This document shows, in pieces, positions 11,205-22,357 of a DNA stretch of 27,400 nt. Position numbers and translations under genes: made by a program. The notes under the pieces are model-generated. The model made no database searches. It was given only the letters and a program-made list of their open reading frames with translations, and had not been told where the DNA came from. Every line of letters starts with the position of its first letter. Position 1 is the stretch's first letter. Origin of the DNA: a virus; IMG/VR virus record IMGVR_UViG_3300027788_000059, positions 1 through 27,400 of that record; one strand, 5' to 3'.

Positions 11205-12923
11205 CTAACCTCTCTTTCTTATTCTTGGCCTTGGATACGCTAGTCCACTCGTAGGTCTTGCTTTTGCATTTACTTTTGGAAAACTCATTCCAGTTTCAGG
11301 TCTTTGGTTAATCCATCTTAATATTCTATTCGGTGAACCTTGTAGACTATTGAAATCAGTACTACTATCAGTTCCTGTATCATACATTACATCTTTGGTT
11401 GCGTTTGCTTCTATCCAAGCATTGGCTTCAGCTTGAGTTATATTAGGATTACTTTCTGCAAGTAATGCAAGTACACCACAAACTTGCGGACTTGCCATGC
11501 TTGTTCCGCTAATCTTACCAAGATAATACGAACCATTTCTAGAATCGGTAACACCACCATAACTATTTGTTAAAAATGAACTCATTATATTGTCACCGGC
11601 TGCATGAACATCAACTGCGTTACCACAAGTTGAGCTAACTCTTTTACGGTCATCTCTATAAACATCTACTGCACCAACATTTAAAGTAGGTTCATTCAAT
11701 CCAAGCGAACCAGGTCTATTACTCGGTATGATAGCTGCATATGTATTTGATCCTTGCCTCAGGTACAAGTAATTTTGATAATCTTGATCACCAAGTTTAA
11801 CATTTTTCTGAGCGTTGTTTCCTGATGCTGTTACTATAATAATACCATCGGCTATTGCGTCGGTGATATCTGCATTGATTGAGTTTGAAGCATAAGCGAT
11901 ATACCAGTTGCCATCAGATGGTACATTTATACCTCTTGCTTCTAATTCAGAATCATTTAAATCAATACCTTGGTCACCGTACTTATCGTAGGTTACTCCT
12001 CTGTATCTAACTATGCCGACTCCATTATAAGATCCGTTTGTAATGTAACTATCTCTAGTGACACCGCCGCCATAACTGTTATTAGTTATTGTAGGATTTC
12101 TTCTACCAGTTTCTGCGTTGATTGGTTTTGTGTTATGCCATTCACGAATGTAATCCCATAACGTGGAAGGAGTAAGAGGTGAACCACCTGTAACTTGGTT
12201 TACAGCACCGGCATAATAAAACTCTATACTATAAATATTTGCATCTCTAGCCCAGCCAAGAGTATTTCCTGCTACAGTCCCACCGACATGAACACCATGA
12301 TTAGTATCGTTCTCGACTCCTGTTGTACCATAATCATAAGTACCGTTTGAACCAAGACCTAATTGGTTTGTTAGAGAGAACCAATTAAATGCCTGTACTC
12401 TGCTTCCACCTGTTCCATCAGCGTTGACGGCGAACTCTGGGTGGGCTTGAGCAGTTGTTGTAATTGATCCATCAACAATTACTACATCAACATTTTTTCC
12501 TGAAGCAGTTATATTAACAGTGGCAGATGTTTCTTTTGTACTGCCACTTAATGCAGTATCTCCCCACGTACCACTTTCTGCGTTGGTTCCAATAGTATGT
12601 CGTAATATTCCCCAATTTTTGTCTCCTACCGAGACTCCATCGTTACTTCTTTTCCATGTACCAGATTCAGAATACCCATTAGTTTTCCATTCTACAAGAT
12701 CAAGAAATGCTTTTGATTCTATACCCAATACTCGAGAATCTTTATTTAATTCTATAACTTCATCTGGAGTTAACATATAATGAGTATTACGACTAATCGC
12801 TCTTCTTAAATGTAAGTCAACTGCTCTATCAGGAATATAAAGATCGCCACCTAATGTTTCCATATCGTTATAGAAATCATCTAGGTCTTCTTTATTATGA
12901 AGAGTGACAATATATTCTTCCAT
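11205..12923 (-). CDS. Subtilisin-like serine protease (S8 family), probable virion-associated
   Basis: A 572-residue protein with a full subtilase catalytic set: Asp151 in VDVVIVDGSI, His209 in NHGVHVGGTVAG, oxyanion Asn369 in TASGNN and Ser475 in GTSMASPQVCG. The nucleotide codons at 12471-12473, 12297-12299 and 11499-11501 confirm the triad. Residues 1-80 (EEYIVTLHNKEDLDDFYND at the start) resemble an I9-type propeptide, suggesting self-processing. No signal peptide or membrane segment is seen, so it is not a normal secreted enzyme. The tail (about 540-572) is basic and Pro-rich (ARPTSG, YPRPRIRKRG). It starts 6 bases after the cupredoxin fibre gene, with GAGG in the end of that gene as a distant ribosome site. 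Being embedded among baseplate genes, it could cleave host surface proteins or process particle proteins. Enzyme class is nearly certain; target is unknown. Confidence 0.92.
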   Translation of the reverse strand: MEEYIVTLHNKEDLDDFYNDMETLGGDLYIPDRAVDLHLRRAISRNTHYMLTPDEVIELNKDSRVLGIESKAFLDLVEWKTNGYSESGTWKRSNDGVSVGDKNWGILRHTIGTNAESGTWGDTALSGSTKETSATVNITASGKNVDVVIVDGSITTTAQAHPEFAVNADGTGGSRVQAFNWFSLTNQLGLGSNGTYDYGTTGVENDTNHGVHVGGTVAGNTLGWARDANIYSIEFYYAGAVNQVTGGSPLTPSTLWDYIREWHNTKPINAETGRRNPTITNNSYGGGVTRDSYITNGSYNGVGIVRYRGVTYDKYGDQGIDLNDSELEARGINVPSDGNWYIAYASNSINADITDAIADGIIIVTASGNNAQKNVKLGDQDYQNYLYLRQGSNTYAAIIPSNRPGSLGLNEPTLNVGAVDVYRDDRKRVSSTCGNAVDVHAAGDNIMSSFLTNSYGGVTDSRNGSYYLGKISGTSMASPQVCGVLALLAESNPNITQAEANAWIEANATKDVMYDTGTDSSTDFNSLQGSPNRILRWINQRPETGMSFPKVNAKARPTSGLAYPRPRIRKRG

Positions 12924-12929
12924 TTTAAA

Positions 12930-14831
12930 TTAAGCCTCTAATTGTAGAATTTGTAGGGCAACTGTGATCACGGCATTTCCACCGCTTTTATTTCTTACTG
13001 TAACTGGAATGTTTGTAGTTGGTGTGCTTTCTAAATTATAACCAATTGCTCCAGGAGATAGTCTTACTGTTTGAGCACCTGTTGTAATTACTTCGGCAAT
13101 CACACCTGCATCTGGTGCAGGGTCTGTGCTTTCAGTTCTTGAACTATCAGCTGTTCGGGCTGCACCGTCTGTATAGAGTGTTACCCAAGCTGCAGCTGAT
13201 GTTGTAATTGTATATAAAGCGTATCCTTTAAATCCAGTAATGTCAAGGTTAGCGGCCACACCGTTAGCAATTGAAGATGTTGCTTGTGATGGAGAAATAC
13301 GACTTGGTAAACTACCGCCACCACTTGCAGACGGATCAGCAATTATAATATCACCAATCATTCCTGCGTGGGCAGTACATATATACTTATATGTTCCACT
13401 TATAGATCCTGGTACTTTCCAATATAATGTACCACTTGTTTTACCTTGAGCACTTGAACCAGTTGTTCTTGCTCCGTTCTCAGCAATATGAATAAGACCT
13501 GTACCGTATGCAGTACTTGCGTCTGAACGAATTTCAAACGGATGAGAAGCAGTAACACCTGTTAAATCAAACGCAATTGTTTCGCCTGCATTAACATATA
13601 ACGTTGGGTTATCAGTTGTCCCATGAATATCAGAACGATATGAAGATGAACCATTAGGTGTCATTACATGAACTGATGTAGCAGGAACCGCAATATCATG
13701 TACATCTAAATCAGCAAGAGCAATTTCAGTTAATGCAGCAAAGGTTGAAGAACCACCACCCCCACCTGTTGCATCTGCAACCCAAGCAAAGTCAGAACCT
13801 GTCCAACTTAAGATTTGATCTGCTGATGCTAAACTTGTATTTAAATGAGCACTAACATCAGAATCAGCATAACTGCCGCCACCGCTAATCGTAATTGTTT
13901 TAGTTGCGCCTGTTCCTGTCGCTACAACACCTGAACCTACAAAGTTAATAGTTGTAGCCGCTGTTGATAATGCTGAACCTTCGTCTTGTATAGTAATAGC
14001 AGTACCACCGCTACCTGTTGCATCTGCAACCCAAGCAAAGTCAGAACCTGTCCAACTTAATATTTCATTGGAAGATGCACTACTTGTATTAAGGTGAGCA
14101 CTAACATCGGAATCAGCATAACCACCCCCACCGCCTCCGCTTATTGTTGTAAATGTAAATGCGCCTGAACCGTCTGTCGTTAATACTTGACCGTTAGTTC
14201 CATCTGAACCAACATCTGTTAAATTAAGTAAACTTGTTACACCTGCGCTTGGCAATGCAGTCCATGCATAATCAGAACCACTCCATTGTAATACTTCGTT
14301 AGAACTTGCAGCTGAAACATTTAAGTGAGTATCAACGTTTGCGTTAGCATATGAACCACCGCCGCCACCACTACCGCCTTCAACCCAACTGTAAGAACCA
14401 TTTGCACTTGTACTTAAAACGTAACCGCTAGTTTCACTACCGATAATGTTTGTATTATAAACAAATGGATTAAGAGGATCTACATAACTTGTAGGAGCTC
14501 CGCCTGACGTATCTGTTAATAACTTATTCCATGAACCGTGAGCGTAATATAATGAACCTGTGTCATGAGCATGGCCTATAGAACCATGATATGTACTTGC
14601 GCTAACGTTATCGAGATTTAGTTTTGTATCATATAAGAAAGATACTTTGTGTGGTTTACCTAACAAGTCTAAATTGCCGTTAATATCAAATAGATCCACT
14701 GGATTATTTGCATCTCCTAACGCAAGATAAAGCTCATTAAAATTATCGTTGGCTTTGTCGAATGCATTTCTTAACGGATCACCTGTACCGTCGTTAGCGG
14801 ATGCACCGATATTAATTATTTGTTTAGACAT
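12930..14831 (-). CDS. Glycine-rich fibre-like protein with cupredoxin (type-1 copper) domain
   Basis: A 633-residue protein. Residues 1-40 (INIGASANDGTGDPLRNAF, then NDNFNELY) are the N-terminal segment typical of marine T4-like structural proteins. Three related units of about 36 residues (starting at 161, 238 and 321; core ILSWTGSDFAWVADATG) are separated by poly-Gly linkers. Residues about 385-498 look like an amicyanin-type cupredoxin: His430 in ASHPFEI, and Cys485, His488 and Met491 in YICTAHAGMIG, with the C-x2-H-x2-M spacing. The C-terminus (about 528-633: GYALYTITTSAAAWVTLYTD, ending VALQILQLEA) is a beta domain seen in other phage fibres. AGGAAAA precedes the ATG. It opens a two-gene unit with the subtilase. 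Structural role is likely; copper binding is predicted from ligands only. Confidence 0.82.
   Translation of the reverse strand: MSKQIINIGASANDGTGDPLRNAFDKANDNFNELYLALGDANNPVDLFDINGNLDLLGKPHKVSFLYDTKLNLDNVSASTYHGSIGHAHDTGSLYYAHGSWNKLLTDTSGGAPTSYVDPLNPFVYNTNIIGSETSGYVLSTSANGSYSWVEGGSGGGGGSYANANVDTHLNVSAASSNEVLQWSGSDYAWTALPSAGVTSLLNLTDVGSDGTNGQVLTTDGSGAFTFTTISGGGGGGYADSDVSAHLNTSSASSNEILSWTGSDFAWVADATGSGGTAITIQDEGSALSTAATTINFVGSGVVATGTGATKTITISGGGSYADSDVSAHLNTSLASADQILSWTGSDFAWVADATGGGGGSSTFAALTEIALADLDVHDIAVPATSVHVMTPNGSSSYRSDIHGTTDNPTLYVNAGETIAFDLTGVTASHPFEIRSDASTAYGTGLIHIAENGARTTGSSAQGKTSGTLYWKVPGSISGTYKYICTAHAGMIGDIIIADPSASGGGSLPSRISPSQATSSIANGVAANLDITGFKGYALYTITTSAAAWVTLYTDGAARTADSSRTESTDPAPDAGVIAEVITTGAQTVRLSPGAIGYNLESTPTTNIPVTVRNKSGGNAVITVALQILQLEA
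13764..14351 (-). repeat. Three ~36-residue repeats in fibre gene, two sharing a perfect 48-bp repeat
   Basis: The units lie at about 14241-14351, 14013-14120 and 13764-13871, each beginning with a Y-A-(D/N) motif, then a HLN(T/V)S motif, and ending near WVADATG or WTALPSAG. Bases 13764-13811 and 14013-14060 are identical over 48 bp, which points to recent duplication or homogenisation. Each unit is followed or preceded by glycine runs. Confidence 0.85.
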
Positions 14832-14869: not shown

Positions 14870-17800
14870 TTATGAAGGCTGAGTTGTAATATCATAATCG
14901 TTTTCTAAGTACTGGCCAAGTAAGTGTTTCATATCATCCGTGACAACATGAGCAACATCTTCACGGAAGAATATTACATTTCCATAATTATAAATTCTAC
15001 TTGTTGCGCCATATAGCGGCCCTGTTGTTAATTGAAGTCCTGTGTATCCTTGTGCCTGTGCGAATCTAAACGCAGAATCCGTAGCAGGTAAGAAGTTAAC
15101 TCCTACGAATGGTCCGCCTGCATAAGGAACAACAGTATCTGCTCTTCCGTTCATTTGAACAATTCTTCGTTGTGGTATTGGAGTCTTCTGCGTTGTATAA
15201 CCATCCTGTGGCCATTCATCACCTGTATATAAATCATTTAATGGATACCAGAACGCACTATCTCTGTATTGGAAATCGTGTGTTTGTGATATCATACAGA
15301 CAATCGTATCCACGGCAAGATCGTCAATTTCAACAGCGGCTCTCAATGCAAGTCCACCACCATTTGATACACCTACAATACGAATCTTAGTTTCGTCAAC
15401 GTTATTATATAGTTTCAGTTTGGCAATAAGTTCTTTCAACATTTCAATGTCAGGACCGTTTGAAGTTTCATTTGAAACGTTCCAACTATTTGAATAGCCG
15501 TCAACTCCAATACATATATGTCCTGGTAAACTACCTTCGAATTGTCTTACTGTAGCAAAACCTGTTCCACCATTACCATGTAATAAAATAGCAACTGGGA
15601 ATGGTCCTGATCCTGATGGTATGCCCGCAGTTACAGTGTAATCGTGGAAACCTTGATTCCAATTCTTTGTAATTGTTAGATCAGCAACGTTAGCTGAAAC
15701 TAATGTTAATCCACCACTACCGCCTGGTTCGTGGTCGGCCGACACAAACGAGCTATCAGCAGTAAAGTTAGTAACACTTGCGTTCAGCGCTGAGATCTCA
15801 GCAATATCGAATGGAGATCCAGTTCCTTTGTCGTTGAATCTTCGTAAGAACCTCGGTTTAATTGTTCCGCCAACCTTAGCCTTAAACATAAAGTCACCAA
15901 ACAGTTTTGAACCTGCCAAGTGAACATTTTCTTTTAATAACTTTTCGTAATTCTCTAAAGGTAAGCTTGATTTAATTTGATATGAATACTCTTGATAGAA
16001 ATTACTATCCTGTATTCTTTGTCCTGAATCTAAATACTCTTGCTCAAATACTTGAGTTGTACCTGATACAGTATAGAATATATTTTCTTGTGTCTTATAC
16101 CAAAATTGTTGTTTAAGGGAAGGGACTATAATATTAGTCCATCTATCTTTAATTGCTTGAGATGCTGTTCCGTTGTAAAGTTGTGTAAAGATAACTGCTG
16201 TGGCTGAACTGATTGGTTGGGCCTGTTTTGTCATATCGTAAACAGCGTATCCATCTGAAGCAGTACCAAGCAACCAAGGCTCAACCGCTGGGTTAAGAGT
16301 AGGTACGGCAACTGTTGGGTCAATACCAGCAACCATATCTAATATTACCGTGTTAGCACTAAGTGTTGGTATTAAAACTGTCGTTGAAGTTACACTGTTT
16401 TGTTTATAACCACTTAGGTGAGAATTTGTACCTGCCCAGTATCCACTTGTTACACCTTGAGTGTCTGCTTTAATAATACCATGAGAAACAAAGTCATTAT
16501 TAGCTGTTCTTAATTCGCCTAAACCGTTTGCGAAATCAGTAACCTCTGAGTCTGCTACTTCGTATTCCCAATATCCAAAGCCAGAATTTAATATATTTAC
16601 TTCTGAAATCTTTCCTACGGCAAATTCTGTTTCTGATTTAATAACCGCGTTATCACCAAATCTTGAAGTTCCTTCAAAATCGGTTGATATACTTAAAACA
16701 TTTTTTACCTGACTTGGTGCATTCTCAAATGCAATGTTTTCGTTTTTGTTTAATCCATCAATATTAAATGGAGTAATTGTAATAAATCCATCTTGTTGGT
16801 TAACCTTTGTTACGATACCACTTATAGCAGAAGTTACACCTCGTATTCTATCTCTTACAGAGAACGAACCTGCATCACCTGCATCAGCAAATAAAACAAC
16901 TTGATTCTTACGATCTACATTTTTAAGTAATGAATCTTGGGCAATCGCAAATACATCACTCTGATAATCGGAACCAGGATTAATATTATCAAATCCTACA
17001 ATAGAACCAATCGTTAAATCTTGAATATCAAAGGCGTCTGATAATACTGTGTAAATATTTGGAGCAACGGTGGTGCCCGTCATATTAGTTGCGCCACTAT
17101 TATAATCACTTACGTTTGCATCACCAGTCACAGTTGGACCAATATCAGTTAGATGTAATTGTATTGGTAAGAATGGCGTTATGACGTCAGTAATAATAGA
17201 AGCAATAGATGTATCGGTTAGTGATGAAACTTTTACATCGTTTACACTTAACGTATCAGGATAAAGTGGACCAGGAGAAGAACCGTTCACGGTTACTAAT
17301 TGATTTGCTACATCAGACAAGTTAATTGTTATTTGAGGTACAGGAGTAGACACGCCGTCAACGAGAATATTTGGCCTGACTGTTGTCAGTGCAACATTGT
17401 CTTCAAATCCAGTACTAGCGTTTGCTGTGCTAAGCTTAATTCCTATTGAAGATAAATTTTGTCCGATAACGATACCAGTACGACCTAACGCATCTTGTAA
17501 CGTTTCACCTATAACAAATTCTTGATTAAAACCATTCTCACTGTTATCAAGAATAATAGATTGGTCTGAAACAAGTAATCTTGTATTCGCAATCGTATAC
17601 CCATAACCGCCATCTTCTAAATCATATTTAATTTGACCTGAGGCTGTATCTGTAACTGCCGTGACAATTGCTTTACCTGCATTACCATCTTTCTGATGTA
17701 CATTAAGAACTTCACCAATTTCTCTACCTGCGAGATTCTTTCTTTTTGCGCCTACATCTGATCTATCGACAATAGTAAACTTTGAAAGAGATCCGTTTGC

Positions 17801-18472
17801 TTTACCAAACTGTACTACTTCACCATTTACATTACAAAGAATATCTTCATACTTACTAAATGTACCTTGAATACCATCAAGATATATCACGGGCGTTTTA
17901 ACACCATTTAGAATAAAGAAGTTAATTGATCTTACAGATGCCTTTGCACCACTTACCGACCCTTCAATGTTACGAGCTAATAAATCAAGATACTCATATT
18001 CTTTATTAGTCTTTGATGTAAAGAAGTTATTGTTTGGAAACATCTGTAGATAAGTACCTTGCTTCCATTCAGAGTCAGATACCTTTTGCATCTGTTCGGC
18101 AGGATACAAAATTTCAATTTCAAACTCTTGATAAAATATAGCAAAGAATAACTCAATACCTCGAGCAGTACCTTTTGAACGATACAGGTCAAGTATATTT
18201 TTAACAACAAACTTAATGACGCTGGTTTTGAGTGGAAGATCAGCCAAGAACTTTTTCTTAAAGAAGATAAGCATACTATTAAGCGTACTATCAATATCTC
18301 TCGTTTCAAATAAACGCCTTGATTGATAGATATGCTGATCTGCTTGGGTTTCAGACCACTTATAATACTCTTCAACTAATTTAACAAGCTCAGGTCCATC
18401 TTCCCTGTAAATAGCGGGGAACTGATTCTTAATGAAAAGCGACAGATTTTTTTCGATTTCACCCTGAGGCAT
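14870..18472 (-). CDS. gp7: Baseplate wedge protein at the gp7 position, with C-terminal LpqC/PHB-depolymerase-like esterase domain
   Basis: A 1200-residue protein between gp6 and gp8 as T4 gp7 (about 1030 residues) is. The N-terminal part (FIKNQFPAIYREDGPELVKL, then GTARGIELFFAIFYQ) resembles wedge proteins of marine T4-like phages. The middle is beta-rich. Residues about 935-1195 form an alpha/beta-hydrolase of the LpqC / PHB depolymerase / feruloyl-esterase type: LLHGNGGTG (963-971), nucleophile elbow GVSNG with Ser1036, Asp1112 in NGRADTVVPYAGG and His1175 in EDVAHVV. The codons for Ser1036 and His1175 were checked at 15365-15367 and 14948-14950. AGAGAGAA precedes the start. The gene is a single uninterrupted frame, so the esterase is physically fused to the particle. 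The gp7 label rests mostly on gene order and size; the esterase call is strong. Substrate (O-acetyl or acyl groups of surface glycan, or a polyester) is unknown. Confidence 0.85.
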   Translation of the reverse strand: MPQGEIEKNLSLFIKNQFPAIYREDGPELVKLVEEYYKWSETQADQHIYQSRRLFETRDIDSTLNSMLIFFKKKFLADLPLKTSVIKFVVKNILDLYRSKGTARGIELFFAIFYQEFEIEILYPAEQMQKVSDSEWKQGTYLQMFPNNNFFTSKTNKEYEYLDLLARNIEGSVSGAKASVRSINFFILNGVKTPVIYLDGIQGTFSKYEDILCNVNGEVVQFGKANGSLSKFTIVDRSDVGAKRKNLAGREIGEVLNVHQKDGNAGKAIVTAVTDTASGQIKYDLEDGGYGYTIANTRLLVSDQSIILDNSENGFNQEFVIGETLQDALGRTGIVIGQNLSSIGIKLSTANASTGFEDNVALTTVRPNILVDGVSTPVPQITINLSDVANQLVTVNGSSPGPLYPDTLSVNDVKVSSLTDTSIASIITDVITPFLPIQLHLTDIGPTVTGDANVSDYNSGATNMTGTTVAPNIYTVLSDAFDIQDLTIGSIVGFDNINPGSDYQSDVFAIAQDSLLKNVDRKNQVVLFADAGDAGSFSVRDRIRGVTSAISGIVTKVNQQDGFITITPFNIDGLNKNENIAFENAPSQVKNVLSISTDFEGTSRFGDNAVIKSETEFAVGKISEVNILNSGFGYWEYEVADSEVTDFANGLGELRTANNDFVSHGIIKADTQGVTSGYWAGTNSHLSGYKQNSVTSTTVLIPTLSANTVILDMVAGIDPTVAVPTLNPAVEPWLLGTASDGYAVYDMTKQAQPISSATAVIFTQLYNGTASQAIKDRWTNIIVPSLKQQFWYKTQENIFYTVSGTTQVFEQEYLDSGQRIQDSNFYQEYSYQIKSSLPLENYEKLLKENVHLAGSKLFGDFMFKAKVGGTIKPRFLRRFNDKGTGSPFDIAEISALNASVTNFTADSSFVSADHEPGGSGGLTLVSANVADLTITKNWNQGFHDYTVTAGIPSGSGPFPVAILLHGNGGTGFATVRQFEGSLPGHICIGVDGYSNSWNVSNETSNGPDIEMLKELIAKLKLYNNVDETKIRIVGVSNGGGLALRAAVEIDDLAVDTIVCMISQTHDFQYRDSAFWYPLNDLYTGDEWPQDGYTTQKTPIPQRRIVQMNGRADTVVPYAGGPFVGVNFLPATDSAFRFAQAQGYTGLQLTTGPLYGATSRIYNYGNVIFFREDVAHVVTDDMKHLLGQYLENDYDITTQPS

Positions 18473-18489: not shown

Positions 18490-20373
18490 TTAATAACTTG
18501 TTGAGTTAACAGACTGTGGAGATATGAACTCGTCCAACGCCATTACTACTTTAACGTCTGTATCTCTTAATATAAACACACGTCCTTTTGGAGCAACAAC
18601 ATCGTTATCTATTGTTTTCCCAGATACTTTAATTGCACTGCCTGTATATGTTTCTACCTTAAAGTTTGTTAATTTCACTTCACCTTTATCATAATCAACA
18701 GTACCTGCAGCTGGATTAATAATCTGTGGATTTGTTACTTCGTCGGTGATGATCATAATATTACCTAATCCATCATCTTGGAAGAATACACAAGTACCAT
18801 TTATATCAAAGGGTGTTGATTTAATGGCAGGCTTAAAGTTTGTGAAACCATTTGCCGCATTGTAAATATAAGGTCTTACTAACGGCGTTTCAAATCTGAA
18901 TGTTGGATTTGTATTAAAATTAAGTGGTGGAGAATATTCAATGACAGGACATATTGTAATTTCACTACTTAATATACCTGCATCTAATCCATCAATAATA
19001 CCTGATACTTTAGATCGTCTTAAAGTTTTATCAAATCCTTCAAGGTTATCAGTAGAATATTTTTGAATTGCTGCTCTTGTTAACGTTTCTAATTCTGCTT
19101 CACCTTTTTCTGTATTCTTTTTAGTGTAATTTACAATCACTTCCATATCACCATAAACAAACTCGGTCTGTTTAAAAATAGGTTCAATTCCTAACGGTGC
19201 TCTTTCTTTTAAATAAGCAAGATAAGAATTAGATAATGTGGAAGATATGATTTGTGTATCATCGTTTAAATAAACAGAAATAGCAACACGCCCAAATTGA
19301 GGTGGATCTAACTGTTCTCCACCATAAGCAGAGACTGCAGATATCTCAGGGAATGCTTGTTGTAATAGTACTTCATAATCTTTTGTTGTTACTGCTCGTT
19401 CTTGAACTTGTAAAGCTTTAGGAGCAAAGTATCGAATAGATTCCATTGACTCTCTTTCAGAACCACCTGATGCTGCGGCTAATGTATAAGCAGAAACTGT
19501 TGCGTTTTCGATAAAGGATCCTGAGAACGAACTATCTTTACCTGCTCCGTTAGAATCAATACCTGAACATATTCTATATCGTACTCTTACATCTTCGAAT
19601 TCTTCAGGCTGTAAACCAAATTGATTCTTACCAAAGTAAATAGAATACTTATCATCAAGATATGGTTCAAGATAGAATACTTTATCTGTTGGGTTAACAC
19701 CATAAATTGTATTGGCTCTTATAAATACATTTGCGTCGTCAGTTGCTTCTGCATCAACAAAGACAACAATTGAATCTGTATCTACTTCGTTATTTGTAAG
19801 GAATACTCTAAGTACTCCATCTGCATCAACAATAAATCCTTCTCTTTGGAAACTTGATAACATTTCACCTTCATAAACATCAACACTATCAGCAACAAAC
19901 GAGCCTGAGTTAAACGCGATTCCAGTCTGAGGATTAATACTAGTTGATAATACCTTTCTTGCGGTATACTGTTTATCTGTTACGAATGAAAAACTTTCAC
20001 CTTGGTGATTAATTTTAAATTGAGAATATTTTGGAATTGTAATTGTTGCGTCTGTACGAGTTGCGTCTTCAATAACAACATATAGTGTTGCCTTGGCAGA
20101 CTTGCGCGAACGAGGTATATAGTTTAATTCTTTTGCATGGGAAACGATTGAGTTCTTAAGGACGGCAGAGTCAAGAAACATTTCGTTAAGTGCCATGTTT
20201 GTATAGAAGTTATTCTGATAACTATTAAACGCAAGAACATCTAACAAGACACTCATGTTTGAGCCATCAAAGTTATAATCCTTGAATTGCGTTTGTGTTT
20301 CTAAATAACTCCTAAGTTGACTTTTTACTGCGTCGAAGTCAAGTTCGGTAATTGGTGTTTTTGGATTTGCCAT
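18490..20373 (-). CDS. gp6: Baseplate wedge protein gp6
   Basis: A 627-residue homologue of T4 gp6 (660 residues), the wedge protein that forms the inner baseplate ring with gp25 and gp53. The N-terminus (ITELDFDAVKSQLRSYLETQ) and the block at about 48-95 (NSYQNNFYTNMALNEMFLDS, then VLKNSIVSHAKELNYIPRSR) are typical of gp6 and of the wider baseplate-J family. A second J-like block lies at about 305-370 (ESIRYFAPKALQVQERAVTT, then DYEVLLQQAFPEISAVSAYG). It starts 2 bases after the gp25 stop, the usual gp25-gp6 arrangement, and needs no promoter of its own. Very secure. Confidence 0.95.
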   Translation of the reverse strand: MANPKTPITELDFDAVKSQLRSYLETQTQFKDYNFDGSNMSVLLDVLAFNSYQNNFYTNMALNEMFLDSAVLKNSIVSHAKELNYIPRSRKSAKATLYVVIEDATRTDATITIPKYSQFKINHQGESFSFVTDKQYTARKVLSTSINPQTGIAFNSGSFVADSVDVYEGEMLSSFQREGFIVDADGVLRVFLTNNEVDTDSIVVFVDAEATDDANVFIRANTIYGVNPTDKVFYLEPYLDDKYSIYFGKNQFGLQPEEFEDVRVRYRICSGIDSNGAGKDSSFSGSFIENATVSAYTLAAASGGSERESMESIRYFAPKALQVQERAVTTKDYEVLLQQAFPEISAVSAYGGEQLDPPQFGRVAISVYLNDDTQIISSTLSNSYLAYLKERAPLGIEPIFKQTEFVYGDMEVIVNYTKKNTEKGEAELETLTRAAIQKYSTDNLEGFDKTLRRSKVSGIIDGLDAGILSSEITICPVIEYSPPLNFNTNPTFRFETPLVRPYIYNAANGFTNFKPAIKSTPFDINGTCVFFQDDGLGNIMIITDEVTNPQIINPAAGTVDYDKGEVKLTNFKVETYTGSAIKVSGKTIDNDVVAPKGRVFILRDTDVKVVMALDEFISPQSVNSTSY

Positions 20374-20375
20374 CT

Positions 20376-20795
20376 CTATCTATTCCTTTGTAATACAACG
20401 TCTAACTGTATTGGCTGTTCAACCTGTCTAATATAAAAAGTAATCCCAACGTAGACTTCTCCATCGTCAGGCTTTGAACTTACTGCAACATTAATTAATT
20501 GAGCTCTTGGTTCATAGGTCTGAATTGTTGACGTTACTCTATCTTCTATTAATTTTAATGTACCGGGTGTTAAATTTTCAAATAACATCGCTCTGATATT
20601 GCCACCCATATAAGGTTGCATTAATCTTTCACCACGATCTGTTAGTATTAAATTTTTAATTGATTCTTTAACTGCTTCCTCATCTTTTAGAAGCACTACA
20701 TCTTTTGAAACTGGACTCGTGAGCAGATCTTTACGAAAATCAGAGTTAAGATTAATCTTTTTCTTTACTGGTGAAATGTAATCTGCTATTGCCAT
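20376..20795 (-). CDS. gp25: Baseplate wedge protein gp25
   Basis: A 139-residue homologue of T4 gp25 (132 residues), the sheath-initiating wedge subunit with a lysozyme-like fold but no needed lytic activity. The signature LILTDRGERLMQP (48-60, the EPR-type core) is followed by GGNIRAMLFENLTPGTLKLI and ITFYIRQ. The start codon overlaps the stop of the upstream M15 gene by one base, and the stop lies 2 bases before gp6, so three genes are translationally coupled. Length and neighbours fit the family exactly. Confidence 0.95.
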   Translation of the reverse strand: MAIADYISPVKKKINLNSDFRKDLLTSPVSKDVVLLKDEEAVKESIKNLILTDRGERLMQPYMGGNIRAMLFENLTPGTLKLIEDRVTSTIQTYEPRAQLINVAVSSKPDDGEVYVGITFYIRQVEQPIQLDVVLQRNR

Positions 20796-22357
20796 TATAG
20801 TATTTCTCTTATATCTAAATGAATCTTATTTAATTCTGGGTAATCCTTAACATATTTAAATCCACCTTTTAATGCATTTTGAATAAAGGCTTCAGGATCT
20901 GCCATATCTCTTTTAACATCAATAACCAAACCACTCAAGTGGGAATTATCTTCGGGTCCGTCTGCCTTTGTGTTATAAGCTTTACTTACCCAGCCTTCTG
21001 TTATCGTTAAAGGCTTTTCTGCATTCGTTAATTTCTGTAATCTTTCGAGGTATACTTTAACATCAAGGTCAATTCTCGTCCAGGCATATATACCAATACC
21101 TTCTTTTTCATCAAACGAATCTCCTTCAACTCTAAATACGTCTGACGAGCCATTAAATACATTACCACATCTTGGAAGGTTTTTATAGTCCGCAGCAGTA
21201 ATAGGTTTAACATTCTGTGGTATTTTACCCGTATCAGTCTTTTCGTTACCACCAGGAGAAGTCCATCTACCTTGTAATCTATTTATTACCTCTTTCCTAG
21301 TTGATGGAGAATACCTTATACCACCTGCTCTGATAGCAGATGACTCATTGATTCTTGAGATGTTTTTAAGACGATCTACGATTGTACTGTATCGCCTTGT
21401 ATAATCATCAAGGGGTTTATTAATGTCCCTTATCAACGATTCTATTGACCCTGCAAGTGCACAGATCCTAGCTACAATGTATTGAATCTCTTCGATACCA
21501 GGCGATTCAAATGCAGCTACTGCGTAATCAATTAAACCCTTTATCTTATCTTTAATACCTTTCTTGTTCTCTTCAGTAAAGAATGCACACATCTGTTCTC
21601 TTGTTGTCATAATACCTTTTACAACTTTTGCATTCACAAATGTTTCTGCATCAGCAACTAGAGCACCTGGGTCAAAGTTGTTTATCATATCTTGTACTTC
21701 AGCAAAGACTTTATCAATTACTTCTGTAATCTTATCTTTAATTGCTTTAATTAATTTTTCGATTAATTGCGCGACAGTTAGATCTTTAATACCATCATAA
21801 CCTCTTTGAACTTTGTTAACTAATTCTAATGCATCAGCTATGATACCGTCGATCGTTCCAATTAAATCAAAGAACGCATCTACTGATAAAAAGAATTTAT
21901 CAAAGGCATCGCAGAATCCACCTAGGATAGAAGTATTGAAATCATTCTTATAATACGCATCAAGGTTTCTTGCTAGTTTAGGCGCGTCAGCATCACTAAT
22001 TAAATTAGCAGGTGTATAGTTATATATTTGCATAAAGTCAGCGGTTTCGAGATTTGATATATCACCTCGTTGCCATCTATCTGATAAATCAGGATAACTA
22101 CTTAAATCACCTATTCGTTGTCGAAGTAAACCATTTAAATAACCAGACGCGTCATATATCTTATTACCGTATTTGTTAACTGCTCTACTTAACGGATTTG
22201 TTTCTGCATCTTGAAGTATACTATTAGCAATCTCCTGAGTCACAAGATCAATTTGTCCAAGAGTATATCTTCCTGCACCATCAATGACTGGAATTTTATT
22301 AATTGATAAAGTATTCTGAGTTACTTGATCATTACCGTCTACGCATGCATCAACCAT
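20795..22357 (-). CDS. Helical baseplate-associated protein with C-terminal M15-type peptidase domain
   Basis: A 520-residue protein between gp5 and gp25. Residues about 140-340 are rich in amphipathic helix (AQLIEKLIKAIKDKITEVID, then KKGIKDKIKGLIDYAVAAF). The C-terminal 70 residues match the zinc peptidase M15 pattern: His473 and Asp480 in NSHLSGLVIDV, and His513 in NKIHLDIREIL, with GGFKYV between them as in the M15_3 group of D-Ala-D-Ala carboxypeptidase-like enzymes. The residue three before His513 is Asn510, where several M15 enzymes have the acidic base, so activity is not certain. One-base overlaps with gp5 upstream and gp25 downstream fix its baseplate context. Likely job: peptidoglycan cleavage during injection, compensating for a gp5 without lysozyme. 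Domain fairly sure, role inferred. Confidence 0.78.
   Translation of the reverse strand: MVDACVDGNDQVTQNTLSINKIPVIDGAGRYTLGQIDLVTQEIANSILQDAETNPLSRAVNKYGNKIYDASGYLNGLLRQRIGDLSSYPDLSDRWQRGDISNLETADFMQIYNYTPANLISDADAPKLARNLDAYYKNDFNTSILGGFCDAFDKFFLSVDAFFDLIGTIDGIIADALELVNKVQRGYDGIKDLTVAQLIEKLIKAIKDKITEVIDKVFAEVQDMINNFDPGALVADAETFVNAKVVKGIMTTREQMCAFFTEENKKGIKDKIKGLIDYAVAAFESPGIEEIQYIVARICALAGSIESLIRDINKPLDDYTRRYSTIVDRLKNISRINESSAIRAGGIRYSPSTRKEVINRLQGRWTSPGGNEKTDTGKIPQNVKPITAADYKNLPRCGNVFNGSSDVFRVEGDSFDEKEGIGIYAWTRIDLDVKVYLERLQKLTNAEKPLTITEGWVSKAYNTKADGPEDNSHLSGLVIDVKRDMADPEAFIQNALKGGFKYVKDYPELNKIHLDIREIL

Follow-up and report, generated by a model that had tools for sequence, protein, structure and literature searches.

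Esterases that are carried on the virion and act on host polysaccharide have been reported for several phages (PMC8471582, PMC6989608, PMC11654681). The virion-borne deacetylases of phages G7C, Aristophanes, PP99 and Moo19/B2, which act on host polysaccharide, are tailspikes or fibres, whereas the enzyme considered here is a predicted CE1-like alpha/beta-hydrolase on a baseplate wedge subunit. In solved baseplates the receptor-binding proteins attach to the wedge protein BW3, and in phage Milano they are located on the C-terminal domains of both BW2 and BW3 (PMC10811340). T4 gp7 has been said to be absent from pelagi- and cyanomyophages, where it is replaced by VrlC (PMC7029224). For the YHYH domain, a role as a metal-dependent hydrolase associated with the tail has been predicted (PMC7824862). 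In the literature searched, which left subscription journals mostly outside, we found no report of a wedge-fused CE1-like esterase or of a cyanophage baseplate esterase. The earlier note on this DNA had known of no described example in T4-like phages; this stands for the wedge fusion, but the domain itself is already present in deposited T4-like cyanophages, unrecognised and on other proteins.

The window analysed here is a stretch of 27,400 nucleotides of viral DNA (IMG/VR record IMGVR_UViG_3300027788_000059, positions 1 to 27,400). One of its open reading frames, uninterrupted from ATG to stop, encodes a wedge protein and an esterase domain on one chain of 1200 amino acids (Table 1). The genes are arranged in the order gp25, gp6, wedge-esterase, gp9/10, subtilase, gp8 and a VrlC-position gene. 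The window and its relatives have the order gp25-gp6-wedge-gp9/10-gp8 in common, with the wedge gene directly after gp6. At residues 411-497 the gp9/10-type connector shows a weak likeness to cupredoxins (PF00127, E 0.077), and the neighbouring subtilase is of the same family as the one fused to this esterase in ACG-2014h. The domain had originally been delimited as 14888-15670, corresponding to residues 935-1195, and is taken here as residues 915-1200 (14873-15730); the original numbering of its triad and of the LLHGNGG loop is correct.

Table 1. Features of the wedge-esterase locus and its neighbours, in window positions.
Feature	Position	Strand	Evidence
gp6 (BW2) wedge subunit	18490..20373	(-)	phrog_219, E 8.9e-134
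Wedge-esterase fusion gene	14870..18472	(-)	unbroken ORF; same fusion in 86 complete IMG/VR ORFs
gp7/BW3 core (helical domain), residues 1-210	17843..18472	(-)	hhalign vs T4 gp7 643-825; phrog_17744, E 4.1e-88
Remaining wedge part, residues 211-914, ending at conserved VSADH	15731..17842	(-)	alignment A2; low-confidence full-length model
Junction SADHEP/GGSGG	15710..15745	(-)	wedge-only relatives terminate here, ...DHEPV or ...DHEPI
CE1-like alpha/beta-hydrolase (esterase) domain, residues 915-1200	14873..15730	(-)	AlphaFold2 model; PDB 9j07 match
LLHGNGG, residues 963-969, oxyanion-hole loop after domain strand 44-50	15566..15586	(-)	alignment A1, model
Ser1036, nucleophile (GVSNG)	15365..15367	(-)	alignment, domain-copy survey, model
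Asp1112 (NGRAD), catalytic acid	15137..15139	(-)	alignment, domain-copy survey
His1175, catalytic base	14948..14950	(-)	alignment, domain-copy survey
gp9/10-type connector	12930..14831	(-)	PF07880, E 1.7e-6; phrog_677
Subtilase S8	11205..12923	(-)	PF00082, E 2.9e-19; phrog_9158

Judged by profile comparison, the wedge half is a true gp7/BW3 homologue. Residues 5-324 match the baseplate wedge family phrog_17744 of PHROGs, which T4 gp7 itself also matches (E 3.6e-4). The wedge profile (A5) aligns by hhalign with the T4 gp7 core over 179 columns (P 77.5, E 1.9e-5), and the homologue from phiM12 matches the PHROG of T4 gp7 (phrog_964, E 8.9e-7). These alignments and the position of the gene between gp6 and gp9/gp8 bear out the original gp7 assignment; the accompanying statement that T4 gp7 lacks an esterase domain also holds, no hydrolase match having been found there. 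At cut-off, none of the Pfam domains of T4 gp7 was found in the 1200-residue protein (PF23786, Baseplate_wedge, scored 24.6 bits against a cut-off of 27), and the wedge profile gave no match to PDB sequences at E <= 1. T4 gp7 and phiM12 gp105 share the homologous helical core and the place after gp6, and gp105 aligns over nearly its full length with the wedge part. Unlike the wedge-esterase, both are devoid of the hydrolase; in T4 gp7 extra domains lie N-terminal to the core, whereas here the enzyme follows it. Residues 211-914 are predicted to be largely beta. The replacement of gp7 by VrlC (PMC7029224) does not fit this family, which possesses both a gp7 homologue and a VrlC-position gene.

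The C-terminal domain is, according to its structural model, a complete alpha/beta-hydrolase with a Ser-Asp-His triad and an oxyanion loop. The AlphaFold2 model, built with 38 natural sequences, reached a pLDDT of 93.6 and a pTM of 0.92; in it the serine sits at the turn where a strand gives way to a helix, and the aspartate and histidine come after later strands, in the canonical order. All three residues are invariant in the 16-sequence alignment A1, down to 37% identity. The full triad is found in 103 of 113 domain copies, the others having glycine in place of serine (eight copies) or being truncated or unaligned at the histidine (two). For the esterase stretch dN/dS is roughly 0.2-0.4, which indicates purifying selection. 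Structure prediction and searches thus upheld the fold and the triad position claimed in the earlier note; a chance GxSxG motif is ruled out by structure and conservation.

Foldseek retrieved 521 PDB matches at E <= 0.001, headed by 9j07, acetyl xylan esterase B of Aspergillus oryzae (E 1.4e-13, TM 0.69), then 9j08 and 8jh8, with a feruloyl esterase and carboxylesterases after 9j07. Sequence searches agree on the A. oryzae enzyme (phmmer 9.7e-8; profile hmmsearch 3.8e-11), making it, with the CE1 type, the best solved match in both sequence and fold. 9j07 and CE1-type esterases have GxSNGG and G-x-A-D motifs in common with the phage domain; 9j07 is a fungal enzyme with ~20% identity to it, and the substrate class rests on this distant similarity. 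Among phage families, residues 918-1183 match phrog_2576, of unknown function (E 2e-59), at profile positions 292-573 of 587; this match covers the esterase half only, the YHYH half being missing. Named families are matched only below their curated cut-offs, both in NCBIfam (NF050058, 33.6 vs 150 bits; TIGR01840, 13.3 vs 107.85) and in Pfam (AXE1, 16.8 vs 21; BD-FAE, 16.4 vs 26.8), and the domain is therefore regarded as a distant CE1-like esterase outside the named families. The LpqC/PHB-depolymerase/feruloyl-esterase group proposed originally was right in kind, as seen from the acetyl-xylan and feruloyl esterase structures and a PHA-depolymerase HMM, but membership falls far below curated cut-offs.

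The existence of this domain is not confined to wedge proteins. By tblastn it was found, unannotated, in about 65 phage records, all of them from Synechococcus phages or cyanophages, mostly on a separate YHYH-esterase protein adjoining gp9. In S-ShM2 (SShM2_094), S-SSM4 and ACG-2014d the esterase follows the YHYH domain, and these proteins share with the window the domain (36-43% identity), the triad and the gp9 neighbour; they differ in being separate proteins and not wedge subunits. SShM2_094 has been deposited as 'gp7 baseplate wedge initiator', and its relatives as hypothetical or 'gp7'. The BFVD model of the S-RIM14 copy matches the esterase domain with a TM of 0.92. In ACG-2014h, S-MbCM7_177 carries the same domain (40.7% identity, model TM 0.91) on one chain with a subtilase and a cupredoxin-like stretch, parts that are separate genes in the window and match the families of its subtilase and gp9-type C-terminus. 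In a fourth architecture (L191:1-7208; also L193, L195 and L196) the esterase lies near the start of a 1160-residue protein. Besides this protein, which also has an Ig-like domain, clusters of the L191 type contain genes of the gp9 type and for YHYH, one of each, and two subtilase ORFs. In another phage, whose gp7 homologue is wedge-only, a YHYH gene (L152:10342-11190) lies between that homologue and gp9.

Bacterial relatives, at 31-41% identity, are found in assemblies of Verrucomicrobia/Opitutia, Marinimicrobia, Bacteroidetes and Myxococcales, with one weak match in Acidobacteria; on plasmids only one weak match was found. In two proteins from Verrucomicrobia/Opitutia the domain shares a chain with a sulfatase and InlB-type repeats, and in one from Marinimicrobia with YHYH. 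One Bacteroidetes relative ends in a Por secretion tail, and the N-termini of several relatives look by eye like signal peptides. The sulfatase fusions, the Por tail and these N-termini point to extracellular work on glycans.

Taken together, we consider it likely that the window encodes a CE1-like serine esterase on the gp7/BW3 arm which deacylates host surface polysaccharide on contact. The C-terminal domain would be an active serine esterase, CE1-like and akin to the acetyl-xylan and feruloyl esterases, and would sit at the far end of the wedge arm, close to the receptor-binding proteins. When the phage touches a cell, the enzyme would strip acyl groups, most likely O-acetyl, from the surface polysaccharide, and deacylation would then either open the glycan layer or keep adsorption reversible until the baseplate meets its irreversible receptor. 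We infer a virion surface location, enzymatic activity and a glycan, not a lipid or polyester, as substrate. The full-length model, with a pTM of 0.35, is too poor to place the esterase on the wedge and was left unused for fold searches. The recurrence of the domain beside gp9, in the YHYH-esterase, the subtilase-esterase-cupredoxin protein and the separate-gene cluster, would favour this explanation; on the other side, several relatives appear to lack the domain and would have to infect without an esterase. If the explanation is true, a surface-stripping enzyme is built into the contraction-triggering machine, probably one per wedge, and phrog_2576 gains a suggested function, which is directly testable because its carriers include cultured phages.

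An unlikely alternative is that the domain serves mainly as a glycan- or ester-binding adhesin, its hydrolase fold being used for recognition while catalysis is secondary or lost. In one clade of relatives (L073-L077, L084, L132 and L133) the nucleophile serine is replaced by glycine (GEGNG) and the oxyanion HG by HE, so that catalysis is not always needed; this clade is probably a natural, inactive pseudoenzyme, to judge from these substitutions, yet the domain has stayed open in its contigs, which stem from six or more metagenomes. Attachment near the receptor-binding proteins would also suit an adhesin. However, apart from the GEGNG clade, nearly every distinct sequence retains the triad, in the bacterial relatives as in each of the four phage architectures, which would be unexpected if catalysis were unimportant.

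We regard as quite improbable a non-glycan target, such as a membrane lipid, a lipoprotein acyl ester or a polyester, whose cleavage would help the tail to cross the envelope. The extracellular PHA depolymerase model is the only named NCBIfam HMM matched by all 38 members (best E 1.5e-12), although the window scores 33.6 bits against it, far short of its 150-bit cut-off. Similarly, the Foldseek list includes acyl-protein thioesterases and cutinases besides carboxylesterases, whereas the solved enzymes nearest to the domain act on carbohydrate esters, and sulfatase fusions occur in two of the bacterial relatives. Finally, that two genes were joined by an assembly or frame artefact is barely conceivable: the esterase does lie on a separate gene adjoining gp9 in cyanophages, but the fused frame is under purifying selection, is complete at both ends in 86 of 105 wedge-plus-esterase ORFs among IMG/VR loci (some of which share or overlap one contig), and is intact in independent contigs, including one (L005) with 99.7% identity across the junction, as the original claim of an unbroken gene had it.

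Returning to the wedge-fused esterase, most wedge-only relatives stop exactly at the junction, with the ending ...TVDSTYVSADHEPV-stop or ...TSDHEPI-stop, whereas the fused protein runs on as ...SADHEPGGSGG; the esterase is therefore viewed as a clean module that has been gained or lost several times. In the wedge tree a single clade of relatives lacking the domain is rejected (p-AU 8.6e-161), which forces at least three changes. The uncut wedge-esterase class comprises 47 distinct esterase sequences. Two phages (L127 and L087) have esterases that are 90% identical on wedges that are 65% identical, pointing to exchange of the module, and this, with the patchy distribution, would fit a host-range module. 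Six wedge-only records, two of them contigs of 137 and 101 kb, yielded no esterase at any other site; these records may be incomplete. Two near-twins, one with the domain (L086) and one without (L144), are 89.7% identical in wedge DNA and 91% in gp6 protein (566/620), and they provide a natural experiment on what the domain contributes.

A wider proposal, which we hold tentatively and see as finely balanced, is that marine cyanophages and their proteobacterial-type T4-like cousins share a recombining cassette of esterase, YHYH, subtilase and cupredoxin modules that strips the host coat at landing. The cassette would dock by fusion to the gp7 wedge, by fusion of its parts to one another or as separate genes beside gp9, with some copies decayed to non-catalytic binders. 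The nearest relatives of gp6 and gp23 are from phages phiN3/phiM12, DLP_6 and Melnitz, which infect Sinorhizobium, Stenotrophomonas and Methylophilales; this likeness suggests a proteobacterial host. No match to a photosystem gene of the psbA type was found in eight related contigs.

Some further features of these loci are recorded here. Some wedge relatives carry an insert of ~100 residues, at residues ~707-812 (16037-16354) in the window, which is cleanly missing from L024, L026, L029 and L035. One contig, the only one with a broken wedge frame, has the wedge gene split into two overlapping frames (L089:738-3798), either genuinely or through a sequencing error, and it was left out of a second wedge tree. 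Lastly, an M15-type peptidase gene (20795-22357), which may stand in place of a tail lysozyme, is flanked by the gp5-like gene and gp25; Sinorhizobium phage phiM12 shows this gene order too.
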